A DNA stretch of 64,000 bases, taken from positions 11,317,927-11,381,926 of the forward strand of contig CM060855.1 in the NCBI GenBank assembly GCA_030737835.1, given 5' to 3'. A program made the position numbers and the translations under genes. The notes under the pieces were generated by a model. The model saw only the letters and a list, made by a program, of their open reading frames with translations, was not told where the DNA came from and did no database searches. This document shows, piece after piece, positions 4,324-64,000 of the stretch. This stretch comes from Acorus gramineus (lineage: Eukaryota > Streptophyta > Magnoliopsida > Acorales > Acoraceae). How positions within the stretch are numbered: the stretch's first letter is position 1; each line of letters begins with the position of its first letter.

Positions 4324-4834
4324 TTAACGACATGAAAAACTGATAAAAAGATCCAACCAACATTGAGATCTCATAAGCTCTTTGAATCCACAAGTAAGAA
4401 AACCCCAAAAGAGAGGAAATTCAAAATATTATTGATAATAAACTGTCAACCCTAGATTATAAGTCTGTTATTTATACTAATAACATAAAATTAAAAAATT
4501 ATTAAAAATAGTAAAATTTAAAAATTAATTTTTCTGATTTTATGAGATCTTAAATGATCATAGGAATTGATAGAAATCAAATCCGATCTATTATGATTGA
4601 GATATCATAAATCTAAAATTTACTAAAAATAGTAAAATCTCTAATTTAAAGGCTTAAATAAATGAATTTTTAAAAAATAAGAATTGTTAATTGTATAACA
4701 ACTAATCCTAAAGATCTCCTCTATATATTTCAACATATAAAATTTCGTGCAATTCTGAGATCGTGGCCAATGATTTGTAATTTATTTGATGGACCTCTTT
4801 TGGTGGTCTCATCTGCATAATCTGTCATTCATCA
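4324..4834 (-). repeat. LTR of the gag-only element (downstream copy)
   Basis: About 511 bp, directly repeated at 6,162-6,686. In element orientation this is the 3' LTR. Similarity covers the whole length with scattered differences and small indels. Confidence 0.85.
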
Positions 4835-6161
4835 GACTCCTCTTCTTCAAAAGAACTCGTCCTCGAGTTCTTTCGCTCTTCAATTGATGTTTCATTGCAT
4901 TGTATTTCATCTTTGGGCAAGAGAAGAAATATTTTCTTGACTTCAAATTTCTTTTCAATAAAATTGATCATGTAGAAAGTTGAATGCACTTCGATTTATA
5001 TCCCAAATTTCTTCACCATTGTAGTAGTTGCAAAGTCTTCATCGTTATCATTGTTGATGATGGCATCCAAAACACTCTTGTTGATGATGCATATATCCTG
5101 CAACACGAGCTTCTGTAGGGTCTCTTCTATCTCAGGGGTCACCGCTATGGACTATGGAAACAACTCCTCTTGTTCTCCTCCAATAACATCTTCAGAATCA
5201 CCAGAGAAAACAACATCCTTTGTTTTTTTATTGCTCATGTCCTCATTGGTCTTTAGTTCAACGATGAAGTTGGCCCGCTCACCTTCTTCTTCAGCGAACT
5301 CGGTGCCATCATATATATCATCACCACTTATGTTGTTACTTTTGTCCTCATCAATATCTGATTCAACCAGATGTTGATAATAGGGTTCGACTTTCGGACT
5401 CTTCTGATTTTTTGAAGGACTTTCTTTGGTCGCCTCCATCGATCCATCAACCATAACTTACACGCTTGATCTCTCTAATTGTGAATCCACCATTGCGGCT
5501 TGGCGACAATTTTGATATAATTGGGGCACATATTGTTCATAATTTGGTGGTAGAAATTGATCCATGAGGAGTTGTTTCATCCTCCTCCACATACAAATAA
5601 GTGCTCTTCCTCGCCGTTGTCGGGTTCTCTGAAGTTGGTCCCACCAGGCAGCGGCACCACTTTTTAATTGAAATGCCACCAATTTGACCATCTTCTCCTT
5701 TGGAACCTCCATCATCTCAAAGAATCTCTTGATCTCTGAAATCCAACTAAGGAAATCCTCGATCTGCATATTACCATTGAAATACAGAATATCCGCCTTC
5801 AATAGGTAATCATTGTATTTCATACGCCACCTCCCCGGCTGATATCTATGAAGTCCATCATCTTCATCATCTGAATCTTTCTCATCATCAAATTGATCAT
5901 GTGGAGAACGTCGAATCACGTTCGATGCAATAGGTCGGCCTTGGAAAAATCCCTCAGCGCGTCTCCTATCACCTCCAGGATGCTTGTTGTTGGCATTGAG
6001 GTTCAAGCCAGCAATCATCTCGCGGATCTCTCGCATTTGATCGCGTTGTTCCTCGAACGCTTTCTACAGGTCCTCCAACCCACGACCACCGTCAATAGGT
6101 TGGTTGTCTCTCACTTTGTTACCTTCCATCGAAGCCAGGCAAATTCTTGCTCTAATACCAC

Positions 6162-6686
6162 CTAACGCAACGAAAAACTGATAAAAAGATTCAACCAGCT
6201 TTGAGATCTCATAAGCTCATTGACTCCACAAGGAATCCTTGAATCCACAGAGAATAAAACTCCAAAAGAGAGGAAATTCGAAATATTATTGATAATAAAC
6301 TGTCAACCCTAGATTACAAGTCTGTTATTTATACTAATAACATAAAAATAAAAAATTACTAAAAATAGAAAAATTAGAAAACTAATTTTTCTGATTCTAT
6401 GAGATCCTAAATAATCATAGGAATTGATAGAAATCAATTTTGATCTGTTATGATTGAGATATCACAAATCTAAAACTTATTAAAAATAGTAAAATATCTA
6501 ATTTAAAAGCCTAAATAAATGAATTTTTGAAAAATAAGAACTGTTAATTGTATAACAACTAATCCTAAAGATCTCTTCGATATATTTCACTATATAAAAT
6601 TTAGTGCGATTCTGAGATCGTAACCATTAATTTATAATTTATTTAATAGATTTGGTGATCCCATCTGCATAATCTGTCCTACATCA
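6162..6686 (-). repeat. LTR of the gag-only element (upstream copy)
   Basis: About 525 bp, directly repeated at 4,324-4,834. In element orientation this is the 5' LTR; the primer-binding site follows it at 6,149-6,160. Confidence 0.85.
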
Positions 6687-17419: not shown

Positions 17420-17428
17420 TAATATTTA

Positions 17429-17982
17429 TGTAAAAATCCAAATACACCCCCCCCCCCCCTAAACTGCTAGAAATCCATATAACTCTCTGACTTTTCCTAA
17501 AGTCCATATAACTCTCTGAAAACACATATGGACCGGAAATCCAAATAGTCCCATGAGTTAAATTTTCGTTGATAAATTATGATTATTTTGTTAATATTCT
17601 ATCTAATTAACCCTGACTGAAAGCATAATATATCAAAAACCTCTTACAATGTGTTAAAAATACGAAAAATCTTCTATAAATGACAATTTTACCCCTCTAG
17701 ATATGGTTTTATAATCTATCAGGCGAAGTAAAATCGTCATCTACAAAAGGTTTTCTGCATTTTTAATAAATTGTAGGGTTGATTTGATATAATGTGTTTT
17801 CAGTCAGGGTTAACAAAATGGGATAATCACATATATAATATTCTTCATCTGTCAATAGAAGTTTAACTCAATGGATTATTTGGATTTACATATGTGTTTT
17901 TAGGGGTTACATGGACTTTTGGAAAAGCCGAGGGGTTGTATGGATTTCAAGCAGTTTATAGGGGGTTATTTGAAATTTTTCC
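17429..17982. mobile_element. Mutator-like MITE with long inverted repeats
   Basis: A 554 bp element whose two halves are imperfect inverted copies: phrases such as AAATCCATATAACTCTCTGA on the left and their complements on the right. It is flanked by a perfect 9 bp direct repeat TAATATTTA (17,420-17,428 and 17,983-17,991), the target-site length typical of Mutator-like elements. A C run (about 14) lies near the left end. It has no coding capacity. Confidence 0.8.
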
Positions 17983-17991
17983 TAATATTTA

Positions 17992-20682: not shown

Positions 20683-20970
20683 AGTAAAAGAATTTTTAAT
20701 TTTAAATTTTTATAAATCATCGCATTTAGTGATCGATTTTTTTTATATATATATTTATGTTTTAGTCTCTAGATTTAAATGATAGTTCTTTTTAGTCCCT
20801 AAAAGGGACCTATCCATATATTATTTAATTTACTTTTTAGTCCCTATGAGGGACTATCCATTAATTATCTTTTAAATTGAGGGACTAAAACCTAAATACA
20901 AAGAAGGGATGGATCGATCAGTAAATATGATGGTCTGTGGAAACTTAAAACTAAAAATCCTTAAAGTAAA
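20683..20970. mobile_element. short palindromic foldback element
   Basis: About 290 bp that is an almost complete inverted repeat centred near 20,825. Matching pairs include TTTAGTGATCGAT on the left with ATCGATCAGTAAA on the right, and ATTTATGTTTTAGTC on the left with the complement of its counterpart ending at 20,897. The phrase TTTTTAGTCCCTA occurs near the centre in both halves. It would fold into a long hairpin. No target duplication could be fixed because the flanks are simple AT sequence. Confidence 0.65.
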
Positions 20971-21561: not shown

Positions 21562-22515
21562 GGGTTAAAGACATCTAAGTCCCTACAAACATGGAAAAAC
21601 TCATATAAGTCCCTACTAAAATTAGGACAGACGTACGAGTCCCTGAAAACTCAAAAAAACCCAATTATCATCCCTGAGTTAAATTTCCATCCAAACCTAA
21701 CGGAATATTCCCAGAATATTCTGTCACATATAATTGTGTTGACATTGAAGTCCTTATAAACAGTCATAAAAACAAATTAGTCCATGTAAAAGACAAAATT
21801 GCCCCTGAAAGACTTTTCATTAAATTGTGTACACATTGCAGTCCCTATAAACAATCATAAAGACAAATTAGTCATTGCAAAAGATAAAATTGCCCCTCAA
21901 AGATTTTTACATTTAATTGGATAGACATTACAGTCCTTATAAATAATCGTAAAGACAAATTGGTACATGTAAAAGACAAAAATGCCCCTGAAGAATTTTT
22001 ACATTTAATTGTGTAGAAATTGCAGTATTTTAGAGGGTATTTAATTTTTAAATTGCAATGTATGCACAATTAAATGTAAAAATCCTTCAAGGGTATTTTT
22101 GTCTTTTAGAGGGACCAATTTGTCTTTACGATTATTTATAAGGACTGTAATGTCTATTCAATTACATGTAAAAGTATTTCAAGGGCAATTTTGTCTTTTG
22201 CGGGGACTAATTTGTCTTTATGATTATTTATAGGGACTATAATATATACACAATTTAATGTAAAAATCTTTTAGGGGCAATTTTATCTTTTACAGGGACT
22301 AATTTGTCTTTATGACTGTTTATAAGGACTTCAATGTCTACACAATTATATGTGATGGAATATTGTAGGAATATTCCGTTAAATTTGGATGGAAATTTAA
22401 CTCATGGATGATAATTGGGTTTTTCTGAGTTTCAAGGACTCGTATGTCTATCCCAATTTTAGTAGGGACTTATATTGGTTTTTCAATGTTTGTAAGGACT
22501 TAGATGTCTTTAACC
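21562..22515. mobile_element. foldback element with 92-bp unit arms, copy 1 (954 bp)
   Basis: It starts GGGTTAAAGACATC and ends with the complement, GATGTCTTTAACC. The left arm holds a unique outer segment (about 175 bp) and then three tandem units of about 92 bp, each with a phrase like AGTCCNTATAAA and AAATTGCCCCT. A short spacer near 22,030-22,065 follows, then three units in reverse complement, then the inverted outer segment. The flanks are A-runs, so a 9 bp target duplication cannot be proved for this copy. Copies 2 and 3 show one with a single mismatch. It is non-coding and probably Mutator-like. Confidence 0.8.
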
Positions 22516-22949
22516 TAAAAAAAAAATCAAAACGCATGCAAGTCGTTGTCTGTATCATTTTTTTTTTTAATTCCGGCCCTTCAGAAAAGTAAAAATAAAA
22601 TAAAAGTACGTCAATGCGTTTTAATAATAATTTTTTAATTGTGGGTCCCTGTCTGGCAACACATGTCGGTTCACACAACCCGTTTAAATGCATCGGGAGG
22701 AGGGGGTGCTTTCAGTCACGTGCGCCTCGTAAACCGTGCCGCAAATCCAGTGACCGGGGGAGGTTTATTTGAACCTGGTATCGATTTTCATATAATACTT
22801 TTGGTTTCACACGTGTCCAAGCCCGTTCGTTTGCATGAGAAGCACGTGTCACTGTTGCTGACACCGTGAGTTTGTCCGGTTGCAGACTTGCAGTGAGAGG
22901 GAAGTGATAGAACTGACCTCTCACATGCTGATTTTATGATATAATTAAT
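22516..22949. other. CpG-rich spacer between two foldback copies
   Basis: Positions 22,640-22,920 are notably GC- and CpG-rich compared with the surroundings, as is 21,415-21,545. Open frames cross it on both strands (22,639-22,869 plus; 22,712-22,924 minus) but neither shows a known domain. It contains CACGTG-like sites (near 22,717 and 22,843). It could be an unmethylated regulatory patch or the trace of a lost gene. Confidence 0.4.
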
Positions 22950-23615
22950 GAATCAAAACACCAAAGTCCATATAAACATAGAAAAATCTATATAAGTCCC
23001 TGTTAAAATTGAAACAGACATACGAGTCCCTGAAAACTCAGAAAAACCCAATTATCATCCATGAGTTAAATTTTCATTCAAACTTAACGGAATATTTCCA
23101 GAATATTCCATCACATATAATGGTATAGACAATGAAGTCCTTATAAACAGTCATAAAGATAAATTAGTCACTGTAAAAATCCTTCAGGGGTATTTTTGTC
23201 TTTTACAATGACCAATTTGTCTTTACGATTGTTTATAATGACTGTAATGTCTATTCAATTAAATGTAAAAGTCTTTCAGGGATAATTTTATCTTTTGCGG
23301 GGACTAATTTGTCTTTATGATTATTTATAGGGACTGCAATGTGTACACAATTTAATGTAAAAGTTCTTTTAGGGGCGATTTTGTCTTTTGCATGGACTAA
23401 TTTGTCTTTATGATTGTTTATAAGGACGTTAATGTCCATACAATTATATGTGATTGAATATTATAAGAATATTCTGTTAAGTTTGGATGGAAATTTAACT
23501 CAGGGATGATAATTGGGTTTTTCTGAGTTTTCAGGGACGCGTATGTCTGTTCCAATTTTAGTAGGGACTTATATGGGTTTTTCCATATTTGTAGGGACTT
23601 AGATGTCTTTAACCC
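22950..23615. mobile_element. foldback element with 92-bp unit arms, copy 2 (666 bp)
   Basis: Same outer segments as copy 1, but the left arm has only part of one unit while the right arm has about three units in reverse orientation, so the arms are unequal. It is flanked by ATAATTAAT (22,941-22,949) and TTAATTAAT (23,616-23,624), a 9 bp target duplication with one difference. The left terminus is slightly worn compared with copy 1. Confidence 0.8.
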
Positions 23616-23656
23616 TTAATTAATACATATATGTCAAGATATATAAATAAAAAAAT

Positions 23657-37600: not shown

Positions 37601-40600
37601 CTCCTTCTTTAATGCCACTAGGGTTAGATTATATTAATTTTGTTGAAATGGACATGCACTAATAAATTACATCCATGTGTTCTTTATTTATAAATAGCAT
37701 TCTTCATTTTAAATAATATTCCTGGAAAAATTAAAAAATGGATAAGCAGATAAATAACTTTAATATAATTATCAATCTAAATAATAAAATCTTAATTAAG
37801 CACTACCTAGGCTCGCCTAGCCGCCCAGACAACAATGGGAGACTCATTATTCAATATTTCAATGTGAAGCCTCGTTTGCAATGCCACAATTGTAATAAAT
37901 CTTCAGACAACAAACCACAACCAGTTTTAATAATATTCAAAAGTCATTTCAACTCAAGTTACATTCATCCAACTTAAAAAACATAATGAGAGCTGGCTTG
38001 AGCTAGCACAAGATTCAGCTCATCAAATCAGTCAGGAGCGCACGAATGCCAGCGAAGTTCATCAGTTGAAAGAACATTGATTCCACACTTATTGACAACT
38101 TTTTCTAACTCAATAAATGTTGTTTTGAAATGAAAATTATATCAATGATACGATGCAAGTTCTAATGGAAAGTTTACGACCATTATCCACTTGAAATCTA
38201 CATAGCATAATCTGATGGTTGCAAGGTTGTCTTCATGTATTGTATCTTATGATCATATGCACCTTGACTTGTTGGTGAGAGCCTAAAACAGTTTTTTTGG
38301 CAACTCTGAGCTGCCTCAATCCCTCATTAGCCAATATTACAAACTTTTTTATGGTAACAGAAATAAACTTTTTATGGTAACAAGAATACTACATTTACAT
38401 CCTTGTTGCAAGACACATCTGGAGAATGCTCAATGATGTGACTAGTCTGAATGATAATTTCTCCTCCTTGGACAGCATGTGGGAAGCTGGAAAGATGTTA
38501 AGAGCGAGCAGGAGTGCAAAGGACAATTTCGCAATCCTTTATCACAGCGGTCATTTGAGCCCTTTGGCTATTGCGTAATCACCTTCTCTATAGGGGGATA
38601 AAGATTTATGTGGAAAATGTTTGGGAGATGGTGATTCAATTCATCAATGACTGGGACGCTTCTGCGCGAGGGTTAGAGTATTGTATATTGGGGGAAAAAT
38701 CATCATCAAAGAGTAAGGTGTCATAACCTTGGCGCTTGTGGGTGTACCTCTTCTACCATGGTACACTCTAAAGTGTAGTCAGTTCCCTCTCCGATGTAAT
38801 TATGGTTTTGTATGCTTTGGGCATTCTCTTTGTTTCAAATAATTTGTTTCGAATAATATCAAGGCAGGATGTCTTCTGTTTAATTTGGAAAAAAAAAAAA
38901 AAACAGAAATACCACGTCAAGAATTATGTGAAATTATTTTTTTAATAAAAATATGAAACGTTGTCTGAAATTGTTGTCTTGAATAAATACAGAAAAACTT
39001 TTATCTGATTAATCTGTAACAACATGAATCTACCTCTTCCTTTATCACCACGGACTGTCCAAAGCTATTTGAGTCTTCTCACTTGTTTTGGCTTTCATTG
39101 CAGCCATCTCAATTAGTTCTACATCAGTTTATGCGTCATTAAGCCTAACAAACTTCCTTACATACACTCATTCTCTTATACTTTCTTTGTAAACTTTGTC
39201 ATTACTCCATCTAATTATTTTCTGTACAACAAATCCCTTTCTATTTGTGTAGGCTGCATAGTATTCTGATCCCCAAGCCCCTGATTGGATAGAGAATTAA
39301 GTTATTCTAATATTTATGACTATTCTAGTATAAAAAAGAATAAAGTGATTTTTTGTTTTGTTGTGTTTTGAATTATTCTCGTTGGAAAAAGTAATATTTA
39401 AGTTTTTGTTGTTTGGATAAAATGTGAATAATGATATATAAAAGGTGAACAAATGATAACAATTGATTTATATTGGAGTTATTATATAGGCTTGTTGTTG
39501 GACCCGGGAATAGACCCAACAACAAGCCCATGTGAGGAATCGCCGATTGGGCGCACGGGGTTCAGGGGAAGCACCCCTGACTCAAATTTTTGTCATAAAT
39601 ATTTTGGTCTTTTTTGTTTCTAAAGTTTGTACATCTTATATCTTATATAAGAGATCTTTTGGCTTCCATTACTGAATATAACACTATTTCATTTATTTCT
39701 GCTTGGTATCAGAGCTATAAAAAAAACCCTTGGGTTTCACTTTTTTTTTCTTTTCACTATTATCTTTTCCTCTCTCGGGTCGAGATTTGAGATTTGCAAT
39801 GGACCCAACGCCTAAGGACCCCACGCCATCATCGAGTGTGGAGATCAAGGACACCACCATCCCGTTAGGGCACAATTCTCATGCTCAACGGATTACCAAT
39901 GTGCTCCTTGATGGATGAAATTATCCATCTTGGTCGCGTTCCGTTCGATTATATTTGGGTAGTCGAGGCATGTCAGGCTTTCTTCTTGGCACCTTTAAAA
40001 AGTCGACAGAAACTGATGCGACCTTCAATCAATGGGAGATCAACAACTATACGGTTCTAGGTTGGCTCTTTAACTCCATGGAGACCCGGATCTATAACAT
40101 GTTCATGTATCATAATACGGTCGACTCTCTGTGGGCTGCATTGAAAAAGACCTATGATCATGCTAAGAATGACTCACGGATCTATGAGTTATACAAAGAT
40201 ATTGCCCAGGCCACCCAAGGTTCCCAATCTGTTACCGATTATTTTGGATTTCTTCAGACTCGTTGGGAGGAACTTGTCCACTATGAGCCTCTCTCAGAGT
40301 TGACTAAGGAGGCTACCACGATTGTGGTTGGCCGACTACAACACCAACAGATGTATGCGTTTCTTATGAGCCTTCGACCAGAGTTTGAATCTCTTCATGT
40401 TCAGATCTTGAATACCACACCACTTCCTTCTCTATTTGAGGCATTTGCTATTATTGAGGATGATGAGCATCGGCATCGCCAACATATCTCTTCCTCAGTG
40501 ACCACTAGAACCCTCAGCGATCAGATGGCGTTGGCCGCCACTTCTGGATATGACTCTCACAGCCACGATGATGGTGGCCGCGGTCGTGGTAGGACGTGGA

Positions 40601-43600
40601 CGCAGCAATATTATGACTTGCAGTCACTATGAAAAAACAGGGCATGAGAAAGATGGTTTCTTCCGTACCCACAATTGATGCGATCTTGCAATGTTGGAGC
40701 TCCTCCGTCTGCCCCTTGTGCTATTGTTGCTGATTTCTCGGTTTCGGGTGATGCCGTCACTGCTCCATTTGGGTCCCTTGATATGCGTACTCTTCAGAAC
40801 CATATTGATGCCATGGTACAGGAGAGCCTTGCCTCTCATGTCTCTCATGTTGGTCCTCCTACATATTCTGTTGCTTCTTCCTCTACCTCAGGTATACCCT
40901 CTGCCTACCGTATTAACCAATCAGGGTCTTCTACTTGGGTCATTGTTTCAGGCACTACTAAACACGTATGGTGAGTCTCAATTGTTTGCTCCCTTGACAT
41001 CACCTTCTATGCACAGAGAGGTACGTCTTACTGATGGCTCACTTACACCTGTCATCAGTAAGGGTATTGTTCCATTATCTTCTTCTTTATCATTACCCTC
41101 TGTGTTACATGTTCCCAATCTTGTTCTTAACCTTCTTTCTATTAGCCAATTGACTAAGGTTTTAAACTGTTCAATGACTTTTTACTTTGAACATTGTGTT
41201 TTTCAGGACCTGAGTACACGAAGAATTTTTGGTAAGGGGTATAAGAGAGATGGCCTTTATGTCTTCGAAGAACCACCCACACCCATGCTTCCATTTTACC
41301 CACCGATCATTCGCATAGTTTTTCTCTACAACCTTTAGATTTATGGCATGCTCGTTAGGACATACCAATTTTCAGCATCTACGTTCTTTATTTCCTACTT
41401 TTTGCTCTCCATGTAAGACTGATAAATTTCAATGTACAATGTGTGAGCTTTCTAAACATACATGTAGTACTTATACTTCTCGTATGAATAAAGCTTCCGG
41501 GTTGTTTGATTTGATTCATTCTGATGTGTGGGGTCCCTCTCCTATTACTGCTTTTGGTGGTCATAGATATTACTTGACATTCATTGATGATTTTTCTAGA
41601 TATACTTTGGTTTATCTTCTTAAATCTCAGTCTAAGATATCCTCTCAGTGTGCTAATTTTTTACGCATGATTAAAATATAGTTTAACATTACCGTCAAGA
41701 GTATCAGATCTGATAATGGGGGCGAGTATGTCTCGAGTTCTTTTCGGTCTCATCTGAATGAGTTGGGAATTCTTCAACAGTTGACTTGTCCATATACACC
41801 TAAGCATAATGGGGTGGCGGAACGCAAATCATCATCTCATGAATGTGGTTCGTTGTCTCTTTCTAGGAATGAATGTTCTAAAGTCCTATTGGAGTATGGC
41901 AGTCCACACTGCTGCCTTTTTTATTAATCGGACTCCCAGTCACACGACTCACACTTTAGGAGGTCAAGTTCCTTTCCATTTTTTGTTTCATGGTCGTACT
42001 CTTTTCCCCATCACTCCTCGAGCCTTTGGGTGTACTTGTTTTGTTCAGGATAGGGGGCCTCACGCACCAAACTTGATGATATGTCTATACGTTGTGTTTT
42101 TCTTGGTTATTCCACCATGTCCAAAGGATATAGATGCTATGAACCTATTTCTCGGCGATTGTTTCATTCCCTTAATGTTACATTTTTTTGATGATGTGCC
42201 ATATTTTTCTAATACGGTTCTACAACATTCTTCTTCACCAGTTCGACCGGCTTTATTTTTTCCGTCATTGCTTTTGCCACAGCCACAGTCGCCACCACTA
42301 GGGGTGCAACTCGGTCGGGTTGGATCGGGTTGAAGGCCTGTCCAAACCCAACCCGCGATGCACAGAGCCCAACCCGAACCTGACCTCAACCCGAAGGGTG
42401 CAACCCGAGGTCAACCCGCGGTTCGGGTCGGGTTCGGGTTGAGCCCGGGCTCGGGTTCATTTGCCTTGAGAAGCCAGTATCTTGTTCCTTTGTAATGAAA
42501 AGTAATTCAAAAACATGAAATTGATTTTGTACTCACTGGAACATGTTGGATAAACCATAACTATTACTTTTTTAAAATATGACATTCTAATCTCAAATGC
42601 ATTCATGTTTTCAAAAGTCTATAAATCATAACTATTACTATGCTGAGAATGTGAAAAGAAATACTATTTAGAAGGAAAAAAACATGTTGAGATTCACTCT
42701 ACATATTCGAACTCTTCATTTTCACGATTTTATTTTCCCCTTTCATTTCCAAGATTTTGTTTCCCAAAACCCACATCATCAATGGAAAAAAAAATCTACA
42801 TGATTAAAAAAAAACATATAAAAACGATTGTGAAAAGAAAGAGAGAAAGATCATCCGTGTGTGACTGCGAGGGACGATAGACGGTGGTGGTGGTGGTGCT
42901 TCAAAGAATCAAAGCTTCTCCGTTTATTTTTTTGGCTATGTTTTTGTGATGGCATAGAATAGGTGGCTTTTTTTGGCTTTGTATCTGTGACGGCAGAGAC
43001 CAGGAGAGGAAGAGAGGATTGTGCAAAGAGAGGAATAACATTTTTAGGGTTAGAAATGAACGGTCAAGATTGCACCATGTTAATGGTTTGATTCAATTTT
43101 TAGATTTTAGTTTGGGTAAGTTATTGTGGCATATCATTTTGACGTATATTTTTTGTTGATATACATTGGGCTTCCGGGTTCAAGTTGAACCGCCCAACCC
43201 GACACCCCAACCCGAACCCAACCCAAATTGGGTTCGGGTTAGTTCGGGTTCAGGTTGAACCCGGCATGTAAAAATTTAAACCCAAACCCGCCCACGAACC
43301 GGGTTGGGTCGGGTTAAATCGGGTTCAACCCGTCCAAGTTACACCCCTAGTCACCACCACAGTCTCATCTTATTATATACACTCATAGACCTCACCCACC
43401 TCTCTCTCCTGCTCACTTGTCGACATCCTCCTTGTACTCAAGTATACCTTCTTCCTTGATCACTCCACATTCTGTTTCTGATTTGCCTCCATTTGACTCT
43501 GATGTGCCTATTACTCTTCACAAAGGTCGTCGGAGTTGTGTCACTGCTCATCCTCTTGCCCAGTTTGTTTCTTATCAAGGACTTTCCGATAAGCATGTAG

Positions 43601-47549: not shown

Positions 47550-50500
47550 ATGGTCTTCAAGGGCCGGTTCTTCTCCTCCAAGAAATCCGACTCTTCCAAC
47601 AGCCCCGACCGGTCCAACAGCCCCAACACCCCCACTTCGTCGGGTTCCCCCAACAGATCCGAGAAGAAGAAGGTCAGATCCTTCAAGGACGACTCCCCGA
47701 TCTCCTCCCTCCGGCAGCAGCCGCAGCAGCAGAGGCAGGGAGTGCTGAAGAGGGAGGATGACAAGGGAAAGGAGTCTTCTTCGCAGGCGGCGGCGGCCAG
47801 GCCGAGGAAGGCCCCGCCGGAGTCTCTCTCGCCGATCCTCGCGTCCTCGCTCGGGCTGAACCGGATCAAGACGCGGTCCGGGCCGCTGCCGCAGGAGGGG
47901 TTCGGGTTGAACCGGGGTTCCGGGCTAAGCGGGCTCTCGTCGAGCGGTGGCGCGGGTGGTGACGGGTGTTCGACCTCTTCTTCTGCTACTTCTTCTTCCG
48001 GTTCTTCCCGGTTTCTGGCTTCGGCGGGGAGGGGATTCGCTAAGAAGAAGGACGCGAGGGGAGATGGTGGTGGCGGCGGCGGTGTGAGGAAGAACTTGCA
48101 AGAGGAACGTGTTTTGGAGGGCGGATCTTCTCGGATCAAAGCGGAGGTGCGGTCTGGGTCCCGCCTTCGAAACGGAGAGAACTCTATGGAACTGGGTATA
48201 TTCTTATTTTTTTTTGCCAAGTCTCTCTTGTAGGTTGGCGAAATCATGTTTTGGATTAACCCAAGTACGAGCATAAGCTTCTCATTGGTCGAGAAGATCA
48301 GTTTTTCAATTAACTCAAATAAGATCATATTTTGGATTAACTCAAATGTGAGCTTAAGCTTCTCATTGGTGGATAAAATCATGTTTTTGGTTTAACTCAA
48401 GTATATGAACAACTGGTGGACAATCTTAGTGATTAACTTGTGAATTAGTGGTGTTGATGAATCAAGTGGAACAATGGATTAGGTATTTCAAATTAGATGG
48501 ACACACATTATATAAGTCCTTACCATTATTTGCGATGGGTCGTGGAGCTTACAGAGATGTAATTAAAATGTAAGTCGTATTTGGAGTTTGAAGCTAGAAG
48601 GGGTATCTTGTTAATCCACCATGTTTCTCTAATCGGTGAGAAAATGTTATGCCCTTAATGCAATTTCAAAATGTTATTTTTCCATATGCTTTGAATTTCT
48701 ATATCTTTGTTGGAGTGTTTTTGGTGTTCTTAGGCACTTGATTTGAAATTGGTTGAAAATTATGGTTGCTTGTAAAATATTGAAGTCAAGAAATAAGAGA
48801 GTTATCAACCTAGCGTACAGTTTAGCTTTAGCCGCTTTGTCGACTTTCTATTCAATTTGTTAATTGTGTAGTGCATAACCAGGTTCATTATGTCCCTTGT
48901 ATGTGAAATTCTCAGGAATGTTCTTATATTTCCAAAATTGAATGACTATCCTTGGTGCATCAAGGAGGGAAATGGAAAGTAGAATAAGCTTCTATGGAAA
49001 ATGATATTGATCAGGGATAGAAAGAGTGAGTAGGAAAAGGATTATATTGTGCGATAGGAATGTTTGCTACAATGTTGAATAATTACGCAGAAAAAAATGA
49101 GGAATGTTATTTTCTAAGGGTCCGTTTGGAAACACATATTGAAAAGTAGTTTTTGGAATAAAGCTGCTTTTTAAGATGATTTTAGACCTTGACTTTTATT
49201 GGGATGCTTTTTTTTAATTCAGGAATCAATATTTGAAAGCAGTTGATGTTTGGCAAAGAAAGTTGCTTTTCAATTCAAAAAATCGATTCCAACAAAAAAG
49301 CGTTGTTTTTGAGTTTTTCAAAACATGGATTTCGAGAGAAAAATTAAAAGGAATTTATCTTCCGATTCTGAACAAAGCTGTCCCGTTTGGCTGCATGATT
49401 TTAGCTTTTCAGCTTTTCAAAAAGCAAAAGCTGCTCCAAACGTGCAACCAAACGGGGCCTAAGGGTGGCTCATACTATAAAAGGTTACTAAAGATTATGG
49501 TGTTCAGAGGGTTGCGTTGAATGGAGAACAATTTCAGAGAGAGTTTCAATAAATGAAACATGCATCATATCAAAGAGTACTATAAAGTTAAAAATGATAT
49601 GTTGATATGTCAAAGTTGCATGCTCTTTTTTTTTTTGCGTCATTGTGATTTGTATTTTATAGTTCCTCAGTAGTATACCATGATGTTAAAAGTGTAATGG
49701 ATGATTTTCCATGCTCATTAAATAATAAGCAGTGATATGTCAATCTGCTTCGTACCTTTTCTGAGCGAGTGCTGTGAAAATTTAGGATATGAGAAGCACT
49801 TCACTATGAGAAAAAGGGAAAGTTAGGTGCTCAAATAATGCTATTATGTAAATCTCCTATAAGTTTCTTTATGATAGTAGTGTTTTGTTTAGATGCATGA
49901 GATCAGGAAAGATTGAGATTTCGTCATGTAACATTAAGTTTGATTTATGGGTTAAAGACATCTGCATCCCGGCAAACATGGATAATCCCATATAAGTCCT
50001 TGTAAAAGTTGGGGCAGACACATGAGTTCTTAAAAACTCACAAAAATCTAATTATTATCCTCGGGTTAAAATTTCATTCAAATTTTACAAAATATTTTAT
50101 CACCATGTAATTGTGTAGACATTATAGTTTCCATAAATAATTATAAAAACAAATTAGTCCATGCAAAGATCATATTATTCTTGTAAGACTTTTTATGTTT
50201 CTTCATTTTCATTGAGATATTGATTGAAAATAGTTAAAAATTTGAAGATAATTTAATCATTTCATGTTTATATGTTAAAATTAAGTAGAGTATGTTGGGT
50301 TAGGATTAATTTTTGTTGAAACCAAGGATGTATATGGGTTTTTATGAGTTTTCAAAGACTTATACGTTTGCCCCAACTTTGATAAGAACTTATATGGGAT
50401 TTTTCATGTTTGCAAGGACTTATATTTCTTTAACCCTTGATTTTTTTTATTGGACATAGATGAGGGTGACAAACTAGTGGCCAATAATTTGAAACACAGG

Positions 50501-59300: not shown

Positions 59301-62300
59301 AATTTCGTGAGATAAAAAGTCCATAGATGTTGTCTTTATTTACATTTGTCAAATTTGGGAGAAAAAGATGGGATAAATATTATCCTAGCCTTAATGCATA
59401 AAAATCTTCATTTTTGTTCAAAATCAAGACATTTATAAGCACTGTATCTTGATTTTTTTGTATAAGAAACGTGATGAGTTGTTCTTTAACCATTTATTCC
59501 GCCAGTTGTCCTTTTTATCTTTTTCTGTGACGAGGAACTTCAACATTTTTTTTCTAAATGTTGAGAAAACTCGGTTGCACAGAATAACCCACAAACTTTT
59601 GCATCAGGTAAAGCCCCAGAGGACATGAACTCGAGACCTATGGAGAGCAAACCCATGGCTCTAGCCAAAGGGCCAACCCCATGTGGGTTACATATCCTCT
59701 TATCCCACCATTTATCCCCTGACCAAGTTAGGCCATAGTGATTAGATAACCAATAACGTGACAGGTATAGTACAAATATTGTGGTGGAATAACAGAAAAA
59801 AAAAGGTTTAGTACAAATATCTTGATGGATTAGGTGAAATGTTATATAAAATGTTAGTTTGACAGCATTTTAATTCTTCGGAATAGTCACATGTAGGCAG
59901 TTGGACGCAAAACAAAAGAAAAAATGCAACTTGCAATTTTTTATGCTTTCAGGTGACCATTACCTTTCTTAAACTTTTTCTTGATTAGCTGGTAAGTGTT
60001 CTTGAGTGAATTTACCCCCCTTTGAAATAGGTACCCCAGTGGGCACCTTTTTTGTGAAAATGCTAATGTCCACTAGATATTTTATTGATATTGGTAGAAA
60101 CCACAGAGGCAAAGGTACAAGGGGATGGGTATATCAGTAATGGCCCCATCACATAAGACAGATTACAGAAAGAGCACTGGACCTCACTCCACCCAAAATA
60201 GACCCTCCCTGTTGACGCTGATGTTCATGCCATCTATAGATCTCTTCAACATGAAAACCATACTATTCCTGAGCAGTGAACCATGGTTGTTCCTCTGAAC
60301 ACACTTCTTCATGTGTTCCCTAGTGCAGCAATATTTTTTTCTACCTTCAGCTGATTGAGCAGACAAGATCAGCAATAGAAATATAGCTACCAAACTTTGC
60401 TACAATGAAGACTTCTTTAGGACAACCAACTTGAGGAGTTCATGAGATTTCAGGTTACCCTTTGGAGATATTTACCTTATCGTCCTCTCATCAAGACATA
60501 TTTATCACCAATAACTAGCATACCTGCTAGTGATTATGTCAATCTCTTTTGTTAATCTGCATTATCATAGATCTTTGAATGCCTTCCTATATGGGATTAT
60601 GAGCTGAACTATTGTGTCACATCATGACAGACTATGGGCATTCAATAAATATAATATATCAAGGAAAACTTTGTCCTCTGTTTACTATACACACCGCTTC
60701 TTAGGCCCCGTTTGGTTGCACGTTTGGGGTAGCTTTTGATTTTTGAAAAGCTAAAAAGCTAAAATCGTGCAGTCAAACGGGCCAGCTTTTTGAAGAATCA
60801 GAAGCTGGATTTCTTTTAATTTTTCCCTGGAAATCTATGTTTTGAAAAGCTCAAAAACAACGTTTTTTTGTCCGAATCGATTTTTTTAATTGAAAAGCAG
60901 ATTTCTCTACCAAACATAAACTGCTTTCAAATATTGATTCCTGAATTAAAAAAAAACATCCTAATAAAAGTCAAGATCTAAAATCATCTTAAAAAGCAAA
61001 TTTATTCCAAAATCTACTTTTCAATCTGTGTTTCCAAACGAACCCTTAGAGTGATACAAACATGATTAAAATTTAATTGTTTTACACTGTTCTATTTTAT
61101 GCCATCATATGATAATAATGATCTATCATGTATGGTGCCAAGTTGAATAGGATGTCATTCTTTATTTCATATATTTAGCAAAGTTCTGAGCTGATCATCA
61201 CTACATAAGAATCCTCCTTTATTTTGCTCATGAAGCACCCCTGCCTGGCTGTAGAACAAAAGGGTAACCGGTCACAGTGATTTTTATGGACCTCATCTGT
61301 TTCGGCCAAGGCAAAACCCATCTTGTCTGAGTCCAATATCCATCCATGTCCAGTTTGAAGTTCACAACTTCATCTGTACGTTAAAATATCTTTTCTTTGC
61401 GAGCGTATCATCTCAACAATTTTGTGCCGTGTTTAGTATGTGCATTATAAATTGCATTGTATTGGTATGCTGGATGAGTAAGATTGGAAATGAACACCGA
61501 CCCCCCACCCCAAACACACACACCCCCACAAAAAAAAAAGTGAACTACTGTCCTCACATCCCTATGCACCTGAGGTCATCAACAGTATGGCAAAACCTAC
61601 ATTCATCATCTACTTGTCAACCCATCTGCCTTGCCTTGATATTTAGTTGCTTAAATTATATGAGCTAATGCTTTTTTTCTCAATATATGTGTGGATGGGA
61701 GTATTTGGGACTTATTTTTGCATTCTGAAATTGCTTACCTATTCATTTGGCTTTTCACTTTTTTTTTTTTTTGGGCAGCTGACAGATTTTGGGCTTTCAA
61801 AGGTTGGTTTAATCAACAGTACCGATGATTTGTCTGGTCCAGCAGCCAGAGGAACCTCTCTTTTTGGAGAAGAGGAGCCTCAATTATCTGCACATGAGCA
61901 TTTAAATCAACGAGAGAGGCGGCAGCAACGTTCGGCAGTTGGAACACCTGATTATTTGGCACCAGAGATTCTCTTGGGAACAGGACATGGTCTGTATAAT
62001 ATCTTATATGCCATAAAATGGTTGTTAGGATTGTCATTGTCCCATATCACTGGAACTTCTTTGCTTTGCATTATTTTAAGAAAAAAAACATTCGTTTATA
62101 CAGGCGCAACAGCAGATTGGTGGTCAGTAGGGGTTATTCTTTTTGAACTTATTGTTGGGCTTCCACCATTCAATGCAGAGCATCCACAGGTTTCTTTCCT
62201 GTATTGTTCACTCTAGATCTTTATTGCATAAGTAGATGAGCTTGACATGGTTAGTCACTACTTTATCAGAATAACATGAACCATAATACCTCTAGGAAGG

Positions 62301-64000
62301 ATTAGAGGAAATTTCTCTTATTTTTTTGCCAAGATTTGTACATGTTTTGCATGTTTCAATAAAACCACTCAATTCTTGTGTTATCAATTATAAAAGCATT
62401 CCCTAGATTATTACATCTACAAGTTTCCATTTTGACAACTTAGTATGTGCGTGCAGACCATTTTTGATAATATTCTCAATCGTAAGATACCTTGGCCTCG
62501 GGTACCTGAAGAAATGAGTCCTGAAGCACAAGATCTTATTGACAGGTAAGAGAAATAGTAATTATTTCAATTCGATTCGTTGTCCTTTTCGTGTATAATG
62601 TTTTTTCATTAGCATCAAAGGAAGGGGATCCGTAAAATGTTGTCCAACCCTTGTTCAAGAAGTTCAATGCTACTTCAGAATTAATGTAATTTTTTAATGA
62701 TTTGGTCAGTTTCTCATGCTATACTACAAATTAAAATAATATCCTGTTCTGTGGGTGATCTTTTGATTCATCTCAGTTGTAAGTTGATTAATAATACCTC
62801 TTGTAATCTTCATTAATATTCTTCATTAATTTCTTCACTGATCATTTCAGTTGTAAGCTTCACAATCACTTTTCAATTTTTAGATATTTTTCTAATTCTC
62901 TAAAAACCTTACTCTGAGTCATACACCAACAAATATCTGTCTTCTGTCATGACTTGTAAGTTTTACTTTTGTAATCTAGTTCAGTATTATACTCTTTAAA
63001 CTTGTATCTATGTTCAGTAGTGATAGGTCATAGGTGTAATATTGGAATATAATTTTCACTGCTAGCGTATAGAAAGAGGTTCCTTGGTGCATGTTGCATG
63101 CAGATTTGCATCCCCTTGCTTTCGCAATGGCAAACAATCTTCAAATATTGGCTGAGAAAAAGGTTGTTCTTGCAAACTTTGTGAGCAAATCAGCAACTTA
63201 GATTGCTTGCTGGATTTGTGGTAGACATTTTTGAGTGTGAGATCACTCTGAACTCTGATATTGATGGATAATGGGATTTGTATATTTTTTATTGTTTCCC
63301 AAGAAATAGGAAACACCCATGACATTTGAAGAAATGTTAGTGATGGTTTACGATCATATTTTATGTATCCTTTTTCAAAATTATATTGGAGGTGTGGACT
63401 TGTAATTGTAGAATGAACACTAGTGAAACGATTACGGAAACATTGTACATCTGAACAATTGCATTGGAAGTTAAAAATTGTTGCCCTTCCTGATTGAGCT
63501 TCATAAAAGATGGAAACTTAGGATGTTCTTTTTTTTACTGAGGAAAGGTTATGTAGCGTGATCATGGCCCATTCTACCAATGTTGAGGATCACCAAATGG
63601 ACAACTATGGATGATTTGTAGAGTCATTTATTATTTATTAATAATTAGGATTAGTTATTATTTATGATATCATTGGATTTAAGATTTAGTTAGGATTTCT
63701 TTTTCAGCTATTAGGAGTTCTGGTGATTTGAGAGGTTTAGAGATTTGTTGAGATCCCAGTTTGTTGGAATTCTCTCCTCCGTAAATAAACTCCATAATCA
63801 CAAAATTACAGAATGAACAATTGTATTGGAAGTTAAAAAATTGTTGCCCTTCCTGATTGAGCTTCATAAAAGATGAAAACTTAGGATGTTCTTTTTTTTC
63901 TGAGGAAAGGTGATGTAGCGCGATCATGGACCGTTCTACCAATGTTGAGGATCACCAAATGGACAACTATGGATGATTTGTAAGAGTCATTTATTATTTG
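47550..64000 (+). CDS. IREH1: IREH1-type AGC protein kinase (5' part, runs off the window)
   Basis: Plant-specific IRE-family Ser/Thr kinase, AGC group near MAST kinases; Arabidopsis IRE acts in root-hair tip growth. Exons: 47,550-48,195; 51,277-51,344; 51,441-51,626; 51,769-53,136; 57,401-57,573; 57,778-58,024; 58,430-58,522; 58,606-58,746; 58,873-58,965; 61,779-61,989; 62,104-62,189; 62,457-62,545. All junctions are GT-AG and in frame: 1,133 codons plus 2 nt, against about 1,300 aa for IREH1, so the kinase end and C-tail lie beyond 64,000. Exon 1 is a GC-rich disordered region starting [13 protein letters not shown] with a conserved [15 protein letters not shown] conserved helical region follows (about 217-420), then the IRE zinc finger (C586, C589, H597/H601, C605, C611). 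The kinase starts at about 867: GRGAFG-type loop RGAFGRV 875-881, K896, E915, HRD with D990, DFG D1008 and APE 1066-1068. A long activation insert is typical of the family. Confidence 0.95.
49118..49459 (-). mobile_element. 342-bp Tourist-like MITE in IREH1 intron 1
   Basis: Ends GGGTCCGTTTGG and CCAAACGGGGCC, flanked by TAA on both sides (49,115-49,117 and 49,460-49,462). It has the same length as, and is the reverse complement of, the element at 60,704. An open frame across it is just the element body. Confidence 0.85.
49949..50436. mobile_element. foldback element, copy 3 (488 bp), in IREH1 intron 1
   Basis: It starts GGGTTAAAGACATC and ends TTTCTTTAACCC, with the same outer segments as copies 1 and 2. 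Only part of one 92 bp unit remains, and the middle has diverged. The flanks TTGATTTAT (49,940-49,948) and TTGATTTTT (50,437-50,445) are a 9 bp duplication with one difference. Confidence 0.75.
50756..50848 (-). mobile_element. tRNA-derived SINE in IREH1 intron 1
   Basis: On the minus strand: box-A-like TAGCCTAATGGTTGA, box-B-like GGTCTTGGGATCAGGTCC, then GATTATCTATC and an A tail (T run at 50,756-50,763 on plus). It is antisense to the host gene. Confidence 0.5.
53943..54934. mobile_element. outer hAT-like element interrupted by another element
   Basis: The left end TTCTAAAAAGCGTTAAGCGC and the right end, the complement of TTCTAAAAAGTGGGATTACG, form an imperfect inverted repeat. GCTTAATCCC words repeat in the subterminal parts. 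The inner element 54,196-54,845 splits it; without it the outer element is about 340 bp. A related worn copy starts near 33,343. Confidence 0.5.
54196..54845. mobile_element. inner hAT-like element (650 bp), nested
   Basis: The ends CATAGTTGT and ACAACTATG are perfect inverted repeats, with CCTAGG-rich subterminal words. A perfect 8 bp target duplication GCTTAATC is present (54,188-54,195 and 54,846-54,853), the hAT length. Same family as 37,281-37,837. It lies in IREH1 intron 4. Confidence 0.75.
55976..56772. mobile_element. MITE with GAGCATCTCCAAAAG ends in IREH1 intron 4
   Basis: A 797 bp element. The left end GAGCATCTCCAAAAG and right end CTTTTGGAGATGCTC are perfect inverted repeats of 15 bp, a terminus common among plant MITEs. 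CCCTACA/TGTAGGG words lie inside both ends. It contains an (AG)15 run at 56,341-56,370. No clear target duplication was found. Confidence 0.65.
56341..56370 (+). repeat. (AG)15 microsatellite
   Basis: Thirty bases of pure AG repeat inside the MITE at 55,976-56,772. Confidence 0.95.
56850..56931 (-). mobile_element. Au-type SINE head in IREH1 intron 4
   Basis: On the minus strand it reads ACATGGGGTTGGCTCTTTGG, then GCTAGAGTCATGG and a box-B-like GAGTTCGAATCC. The body and A tail are not clear, so it may be 3'-truncated. Confidence 0.45.
59546..59690 (-). mobile_element. Au-type SINE in IREH1 intron 9
   Basis: On the minus strand: ACATGGGGTTGGCCCTTTGG, GCTAGAGCCATGG, box-B-like GGTCTCGAGTTC, body, and a T run at 59,546-59,553 on plus as tail. 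Same family as 36,027 and 56,850. Confidence 0.55.
60704..61045 (+). mobile_element. 342-bp Tourist-like MITE in IREH1 intron 9
   Basis: Ends GGCCCCGTTTGG and CCAAACGAACCC, flanked by TTA on both sides (60,701-60,703 and 61,046-61,048). It is inverted relative to the equal-length copy at 49,118-49,459. Confidence 0.85.
63452..63640 (+). repeat. direct repeat near the window end, copy 1
   Basis: About 185 bp closely repeated at 63,814-64,000; shared text includes CCTTCCTGATTGAGCTTCAT and GAGGATCACCAAATGGACAA. The spacing is about 362 bp. It lies in the IREH1 intron after exon 12. It may be part of a larger element continuing beyond the window. Confidence 0.75.
63814..64000 (+). repeat. direct repeat near the window end, copy 2
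   Basis: Second copy of the repeat at 63,452-63,640, cut by the end of the window. Confidence 0.75.

Follow-up and report, generated by a model that had tools for sequence, protein, structure and literature searches.

Three foldback elements with shared ends in one window

Elements whose foldback arms are built from tandem units raise the question of whether size changes copy by copy, through gain and loss of units, or is inherited. We investigated this question with three copies of one such element that lie in a 64,000-nucleotide stretch of Acorus gramineus DNA (here called the window) and measure 955, 666, and 488 bp. The original prediction, made from the window alone, had described them as a foldback family of Mutator-like anatomy that gains and loses ~92-bp units in each arm independently. 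All three copies are foldback elements that share their ends and do not code for protein; no open reading frame of at least 120 amino acids (stop to stop) overlaps any of them in the window.

Copy 1 (positions 21562 to 22516; element L001) is a member of subfamily A (~957 bp) with 3+3 units, as judged by arm alignment, Tandem Repeats Finder, a unit profile (described below), and the presence of the centre marker of that subfamily. The predicted layout of three units, a spacer, and three inverted units stood, but the right end, previously placed at 22515 (954 bp), fits better at 22516, where the last base is T and not C, giving 955 bp. The arms are 88.2% complementary over 961 aligned columns. 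Tandem Repeats Finder detected repeats with a period of 92 at 21726 to 22026 (3.3 copies) and at 22057 to 22353 (3.2 copies), and the unit profile found three full units in each arm, confirming the predicted unit length of ~92 bp. From left to right, copy 1 consists of a 165-bp outer segment (21562 to 21726, plus strand), with the motif AGTCCCT at 21578, 21608, and 21638 (a spacing of 30 bp); units 1, 2, and 3 on the plus strand at 21727 to 21816, 21818 to 21907, and 21910 to 21999 (L001 positions 166 to 255, 257 to 346, and 349 to 438), identified with the unit profile; the short centre of subfamily A (22000 to 22078), from the unit profile and the centre marker; units 3, 2, and 1 on the minus strand at 22079 to 22168, 22171 to 22260, and 22263 to 22352 (L001 positions 518 to 607, 610 to 699, and 702 to 791), again from the profile; and the right outer segment (22353 to 22516, minus strand), from the sequence and the unit profile. 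The 9-bp flanks of copy 1 are little informative because they are all A and lie inside longer A runs. As RNA, copy 1 has a folding energy of -606.3 kcal/mol, compared to a mean of -187.5 (standard deviation, 8.0) for 20 shuffled sequences. A reading as a structured RNA was rejected, since no Rfam family reached its gathering score in the whole window.

Copy 2 (22950 to 23615, 666 bp) is a member of subfamily D (~667 bp), in which one arm is nearly all deleted within unit 1. On the left it retains positions 1 to 65 of the 90 of unit 1 (23114 to 23178, plus strand; 91% identity to unit 1). These are joined directly to unit 3 of the right arm (23176 to 23265), followed by unit 2 (23268 to 23357) and unit 1 (23365 to 23450), all on the minus strand, with 96%, 96%, and 91% identity to units 3, 2, and 1, respectively. 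The left end can be placed at 22950 or 22954; the right flank, TTAATTAAT (23616 to 23624), then has its 9-bp partner at 22941 to 22949 or 22945 to 22953, with one mismatch either way. The description of copy 2 as having less than one unit on the left, three on the right, and one-mismatch 9-bp flanks was correct, but the shared terminus, GGGTTAAAGACATC, is intact at the right end only, the left one having decayed. Copy 3 (49949 to 50436, 488 bp) is a member of subfamily F, which has a single unit in one arm only. Its length and its 9-bp target duplication with one mismatch (left, TTGATTTAT at 49940 to 49948; right, TTGATTTTT at 50437 to 50445) were as predicted. Its unit, which had been called part of one, is in fact nearly full length: a diverged unit of 89 bp (50104 to 50192, plus strand; positions 156 to 244 of the copy in the unit profile) that spans model positions 1 to 90 of 90 and has 78% identity to unit 1 and 79% to unit 2.

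The family is abundant, and its copies are flanked by 9-bp target duplications

The genome searched was the window's own (398.6 Mb). A search with the outer end, which had been suggested as a check, confirmed the shared outer segments genome-wide: the 29-base terminus has 588 exact occurrences (294 forward and 294 reverse) and 1,920 with up to three mismatches (959 and 961), with a reversed control of 0 in both cases. In the window alone, a 14-base terminus with up to three mismatches was found 8 times (6.8 expected), which is not above chance; it is because of the long matches and the genome-wide terminus counts, with their reversed control of 0, that the family is not attributable to chance. 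A 25-base terminus had 0 exact matches in viral_contigs and genome_contigs, collections that by design contain no plants, and there were 0 occurrences of the terminus string in the literature searched. We concluded that the family is a large group of hairpin-shaped non-coding elements in one large genome.

We read 61 elements. A set of 57 loci retrieved with the terminus yielded 49 of these, after removal of six duplicates and two unpaired ends; the other 12 are L088, L089, five members of subfamily F, three of subfamily D, and copies 2 and 3 of the window. The two loci with exact ends and no partner in reach (L082 and L085, among 51 distinct loci) were considered as possible larger elements but have partial or decayed ends, with no coding remains recognized. 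Two further entries, L079 and L080, represent one insertion within a duplicated region. L089 (C2:20771615-20774615) is an A-type foldback that carries a nested insert of ~580 bp, rich in CCCGAACCC and adjoined on both sides by TAG.

The 9-bp flanks were perfect in 27 of 61 elements and had one mismatch or none in 44, the flank match having formed part of the end-pair score where several pairs were possible. When flanks were re-paired in 1,000 permutations, the means were 0.11 and 1.33 and the maxima 2 and 7, respectively. Perfect matches were found in 3 of 61 elements at a length of 8 and in 3 of 61 at a length of 10. Target duplications of Mutator-like elements (MULEs) are ~9 bp long, with a range of 8 to 11 bp, and those of the family are of this type. 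The A+T content of duplications with no more than one mismatch is 96%, compared to 72% for their surroundings.

Arm units are fixed in order and usually in number

Each arm follows one plan, an outer segment and then three distinct units in a single order, and the two arms of an element carry different, inherited versions of the sequence. The unit profile (90 model positions) was built from the elements and then run over the same elements. The full units, numbered from the outside inward, were compared one by one with those of other elements. For 281 of 283 full units, the nearest unit in another copy belonged to the same position class (L1, 46 of 47; L2, 49 of 49; L3, 44 of 45; R1, 48 of 48; R2, 50 of 50; R3, 44 of 44), a count that leaves out one extra unit (L5) of element L086. 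Mean identity between copies was ~0.89 to 0.93 within a position class and 0.78 to 0.84 between classes. The units are frozen in order; repeated gain and loss would have blurred the position classes. In a rough tree of 60 units and six F units, based on 90 columns, unit 1, unit 3, and the F units each formed one group, and unit 2 did not form a single group because the F units fall beside it.

Unit number was counted in 50 copies sampled by terminus, with a unit taken as full if it covered at least 80 of the 90 model positions. The sample is biased, in that 8 of the 50 are best matches to copy 1, the rest come from exact-terminus lists, mostly of one contig, and old, decayed copies are under-sampled. 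Within it, 36 copies have 3+3 full units, one has 4+3, eight have 3+2, two have 3+1, two have 3+0, and one has 2+0. Both arms have three or more full units in 37 of the 50, and the other 13 have a loss in at least one arm, so that losses are not negligible. Lengths pile up at a few values: 957 bp in 12 copies, 955 to 956 bp in four more, and 1,027 to 1,032 bp in seven.

Three of the losses look like in-register exchanges between units. Element L012 (848 bp, 184 below 1,032) has a single left unit that is of the unit-1 type up to position 40 and of the unit-3 type from position 53, and looks like the product of an in-register exchange spanning two units. One arm of L023 contains a chimera of units 1 and 2, and L071 shares its unit layout. 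L072 is 865 bp long, exactly 92 below 957; here, the evidence for a crossover consists of this length and a single base diagnostic of the other unit. Out-of-register changes were found in L003, L004, L015, L070, L075, and subfamily D. The sole gain in the 50 sampled copies is in L086, which has a duplicated inner block and one more full unit. Size changes are rare and mostly losses. Unit turnover as originally proposed is therefore real as a process, in the form of single-arm losses (L012, L072, and L023/L071) and the gain in L086, but it is rare in the sample. As an account of size variation in general it is not supported, with 281 of 283 units position-specific and 36 of 50 copies at 3+3. 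Fixed unit counts in a genome search, which the prediction itself had named as evidence against this mode of size change, are largely what we observed (36 copies at exactly 3+3 and one at 4+3).

Different sizes are mostly inherited subfamilies

We counted subfamily markers in the genome with up to three mismatches allowed; all reversed controls gave 0. The centre marker of subfamily A (short centre) occurs at 481 places (248+233). Subfamily B (~1,306 bp) has a long centre, with a spacer that is at least 95% identical in 40 of 40 cases (best 40 of 447 candidates). In subfamily C (~1,032 bp), the B spacer is shortened at one junction, which is found at 194 places (107+87). The junction of subfamily D, where unit 3 of one arm meets unit 1 of the opposite arm at position 65, occurs at 12 places (3+9). 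All 40 matches for subfamily F (best 40 of 1,679 candidates) span 463 to 498 bp, and 38 of these 40 cover at least 483 of the 488 query positions. All five F members that were read are flanked by 9-bp duplications with no more than one mismatch. In the three fetched D members, the 9-bp duplications contain zero, one, and two mismatches; in the D members L010 and L083, the flanks differ at three and five positions, respectively. Copies 2 and 3 of the window, as members of fixed-length subfamilies, are not individually shrunken elements.

The arms themselves are also inherited. A tree of 114 arms shows two sets (SH-aLRT, 98 and 81) between which every A element (22 of 22) divides its arms, one to each set. 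The same holds for 10 of 11 C elements, the exception being L012, which has lost two units from one arm; among B arms the division is less clean. On this tree, which is weakly supported (72 of 111 inner branches open), size class requires 18 changes, compared to a mean of 63.5 for shuffled classes, and none of 200 shuffles gave a value as low. Gene conversion between arms was considered as a main force and rejected. Identity between the arms of one element was 0.876 for unit 2 and 0.873 for unit 3, compared to 0.895 and 0.899 across elements, and for unit 1 the values were 0.923 and 0.917. The arms of a single element are thus no more alike than those of different elements in units 2 and 3, and marginally more alike in unit 1, indicating that they are not being evened out. 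We concluded that whole hairpins are copied, with size and arm identity inherited; that each of the two arms is for the most part a separate lineage, inherited as such; and that size differences mostly reflect inherited subfamilies and not copy-by-copy growth or shrinkage. The 16 A copies compared are 97.2% identical to their majority sequence. With a substitution rate of 7e-9 per site per year, this divergence would correspond to ~4 million years, although we do not claim an age.

These observations suggest a history in which an ancestral hairpin with 3+3 units would have been assembled once. A few founder changes, in which the centre was replaced or deleted or most of one arm was deleted, may then have given rise to the subfamilies (A, ~957 bp; B, ~1,306 bp; C, ~1,032 bp; D, ~667 bp; E, 924 bp; F, 488 bp). 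Each subfamily would afterwards have been copied at fixed length, with later single-arm unit losses, including in-register exchange between neighbouring units, presumably being rare.

The family is very probably Mutator-like and non-autonomous

Terminal inverted repeats of MULEs exceed ~100 bp; here, the outer segment alone has 165 bp, and the arms of copy 1 are 88.2% complementary over their 961 columns. As in foldback elements, the arms contain internal tandem repeats and the element folds into a single hairpin. Like miniature inverted-repeat transposable elements (MITEs), the family is non-coding, has a high copy number (1,920 near-matching termini), and falls into subfamilies of near-fixed length. 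MITEs are short, and 957 to 1,306 bp is long for one. The long arms, 9-bp target duplications, and AT-rich targets uphold the Mutator-like anatomy of the original prediction. These are very probably non-autonomous MULE foldback transposons, each hairpin being moved as a whole by a transposase acting in trans. As the mover, we infer a mudrA-type transposase from duplication length and anatomy only.

We searched for an autonomous partner. With profiles run over ~1.4 kb of flank at each MULE gene, the outer segment or units were found at 0 of 30 MULE loci, and comparison of the MULE loci among themselves for element boundaries gave no shared termini. The profile match at L088 is the foldback already known there; this locus was rejected as an autonomous candidate, since the foldback, 3.6 kb from a MULE, is a complete 956-bp A copy and its nearness looks like chance. 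With the B spacer as bait for a larger element, only whole spacers were found among the best 40 of 447 candidates. At least 150 matches to the MULE domain in the genome exceed the cut-off (best 150 of 1,162 candidates), which makes a source in trans plausible.

Three other explanations can be weighed against this account. If each arm gained and lost units independently and often, size would differ copy by copy. The in-register losses in L012, L072, and L023/L071 and the duplicated block with an extra full unit in L086 are of the kind expected, and unit number in the nematode family Tm1 does vary between elements and between element ends (PMC3169594). However, with nearly all units position-specific (281 of 283), three or more full units in each arm of 37 of 50 copies, and fixed-length relatives for window copies 2 and 3, we regard frequent turnover as very unlikely. 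We think it scarcely probable that the family is not Mutator-like and belongs to another superfamily with 9-bp duplications, or that the hairpin spread by another route. No transposase with the family's ends was found among the 30 MULE loci (~1.4 kb flanks), but the duplications are exactly 9 bp, the long arms have internal repeats, the targets are AT-rich, and the MULE-domain matches (at least 150, from the best 150 of 1,162) make a trans source plausible.

The third explanation bears on the direction of change and is doubtful, though less so than the other two: the one-unit state of subfamily F could be ancestral, with three-unit arms arising later by tandem duplication. F copies are more diverse than A copies (mean pairwise identity, 0.895 for 6 copies versus 0.952 for 16), and the F unit resembles units 1 and 2 to about the same degree. 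In the unit tree, however, which is unrooted, has 90 columns, and gives rough support, F lies beside the unit-2 rows and not outside all units. We favor an ancestral 3+3 hairpin, moved as a non-autonomous MULE.

AGTCCCT-like sites are regularly spaced in the arms

In each arm, AGTCCCT-like sites lie at positions 17, 47, and 77 and then in pairs exactly 30 bp apart in every unit. Across 61 elements, 832 such sites point inward and 7 outward, and 375 pairs are 30 bp apart. The A consensus arm has nine sites, compared to a shuffle mean of 0.86; the nine are not independent, because six of them are in repeated units. The outer segment alone has three sites, a number reached by 9 of 1,000 shuffles. 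Differences between arms affect 8 of 91 site columns and 18 of 349 other columns (P = 0.21), and comparisons of site conservation between F and A gave P values of 0.84 and 0.59. Conceivably, the arms could be an ordered array of putative transposase-contact sites, with symmetric 3+3 arrays persisting because they would transpose best, but we consider this unlikely, and it stays a guess because the sites are not better conserved than their surroundings. The 30-bp spacing offers a testable guess as to how such long ends might be recognized, which conservation does not yet back. Elsewhere in the window, a short palindromic stretch (20794 to 20886) has four AGTCCCT sites, two in each direction, and is perhaps another small transposon.

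Comparison with known foldback elements

Elements of this kind are already known: foldback MULEs with tandem arm units occur in nematodes and mosquitoes, and in other forms in plants. What is new is this family itself, and its distinguishing point is the fixed, position-specific unit array. No plant family with such an arm build was found in the literature searched, which included few subscription journals.

Tm1, a Mutator/Foldback family of root-knot nematodes (PMC3169594), likewise has 9-bp duplications, composite arms of a terminal motif and tandem units, non-autonomous members, and imperfect arms (mean of 93.15%, compared to 88% for copy 1). Its units are mostly 14 bp long and number 1 to 9, varying by element and end, whereas units here are ~92 bp long, position-specific, and usually three per arm; variation by copy and by arm as a rule, as in Tm1, is not what we found (37 of 50 copies have three or more full units in each arm). 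Tm1 also has transposase-coding members, of which none was found here (30 MULE loci). Muta1 of Aedes aegypti (PMC5225508), a MULE called a type 2 foldback, resembles our family in its subterminal tandem repeats inside the arms and its 8- to 9-bp duplications; it has hundreds of non-autonomous derivatives, some with fewer repeats. It differs in that each arm has nine repeats of 12 bp and in that its source element is autonomous and active. In plant MULEs with multiple terminal inverted repeats (PMC3310237), duplicated arm sequence is similarly amplified as such, with both tandem repeats conserved. The duplicated stretches in those elements are whole arms of at least 100 bp, with up to 29 copies per element, whereas in most copies of our family it is an internal unit that is tripled.

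MuTAnT of Medicago truncatula (PMC4486113) is, like our family, a plant MULE foldback MITE in AT-rich DNA, with fixed subfamilies and 9-bp duplications where detectable. It differs in being mostly 200 to 300 bp long, in its TA microsatellite targets, in having a known autonomous partner, and in consisting of four similar segments rather than an outer segment and three units. The Drosophila foldbacks Galileo and Tetris (PMC3573991, PMC3688188, PMC4079207) also have long arms with internal tandem repeats, which in Galileo hold extra transposase binding sites. Galileo, in contrast, belongs to the P superfamily, with ~210-bp repeats that expand and contract in one subfamily, and the repeats of Tetris are ~220 bp long. 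Our series of hairpin elements is a case for asking whether instability is inherent in the tandem arrays of foldback arms. In this family the arrays are fairly stable, unlike those reported for Tm1: unit order, unit number, and the differences between arms outlast many rounds of copying, and the few in-register losses show which exchange route does act.

Other features of the window

A second foldback family is present at 17429 to 17982, with 9-bp flanks of TAATATTTA on both sides (17420 to 17428 and 17983 to 17991) and repeats ~30 bp apart near both ends. It has ~55 bp in common with copy 2 (76%) and at least 39 further copies in the genome, at 76 to 82% identity (best of 4,563 candidates). 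Direct repeats at 4325 to 4834 and 6163 to 6686 (85.6%) surround a gag-like open reading frame (5458 to 6063; PF03732), and the whole (4325 to 6686) is probably a short, old LTR element. Broken open reading frames of a copia-type retrotransposon lie at 39919 to 42333, with gag and integrase matches below curated cut-offs. Kinase and PUB-domain genes are also present and, with the copia-type and other gag remains and the many MULE genes of the genome, would be in keeping with a plant. The window further contains a run of 29 G's (1062 to 1090), a 351-bp inverted pair (49113 to 49463 and 60700 to 61050; 89.7% identical), and a direct repeat (63452 to 63636 and 63814 to 63999; 95% identical).
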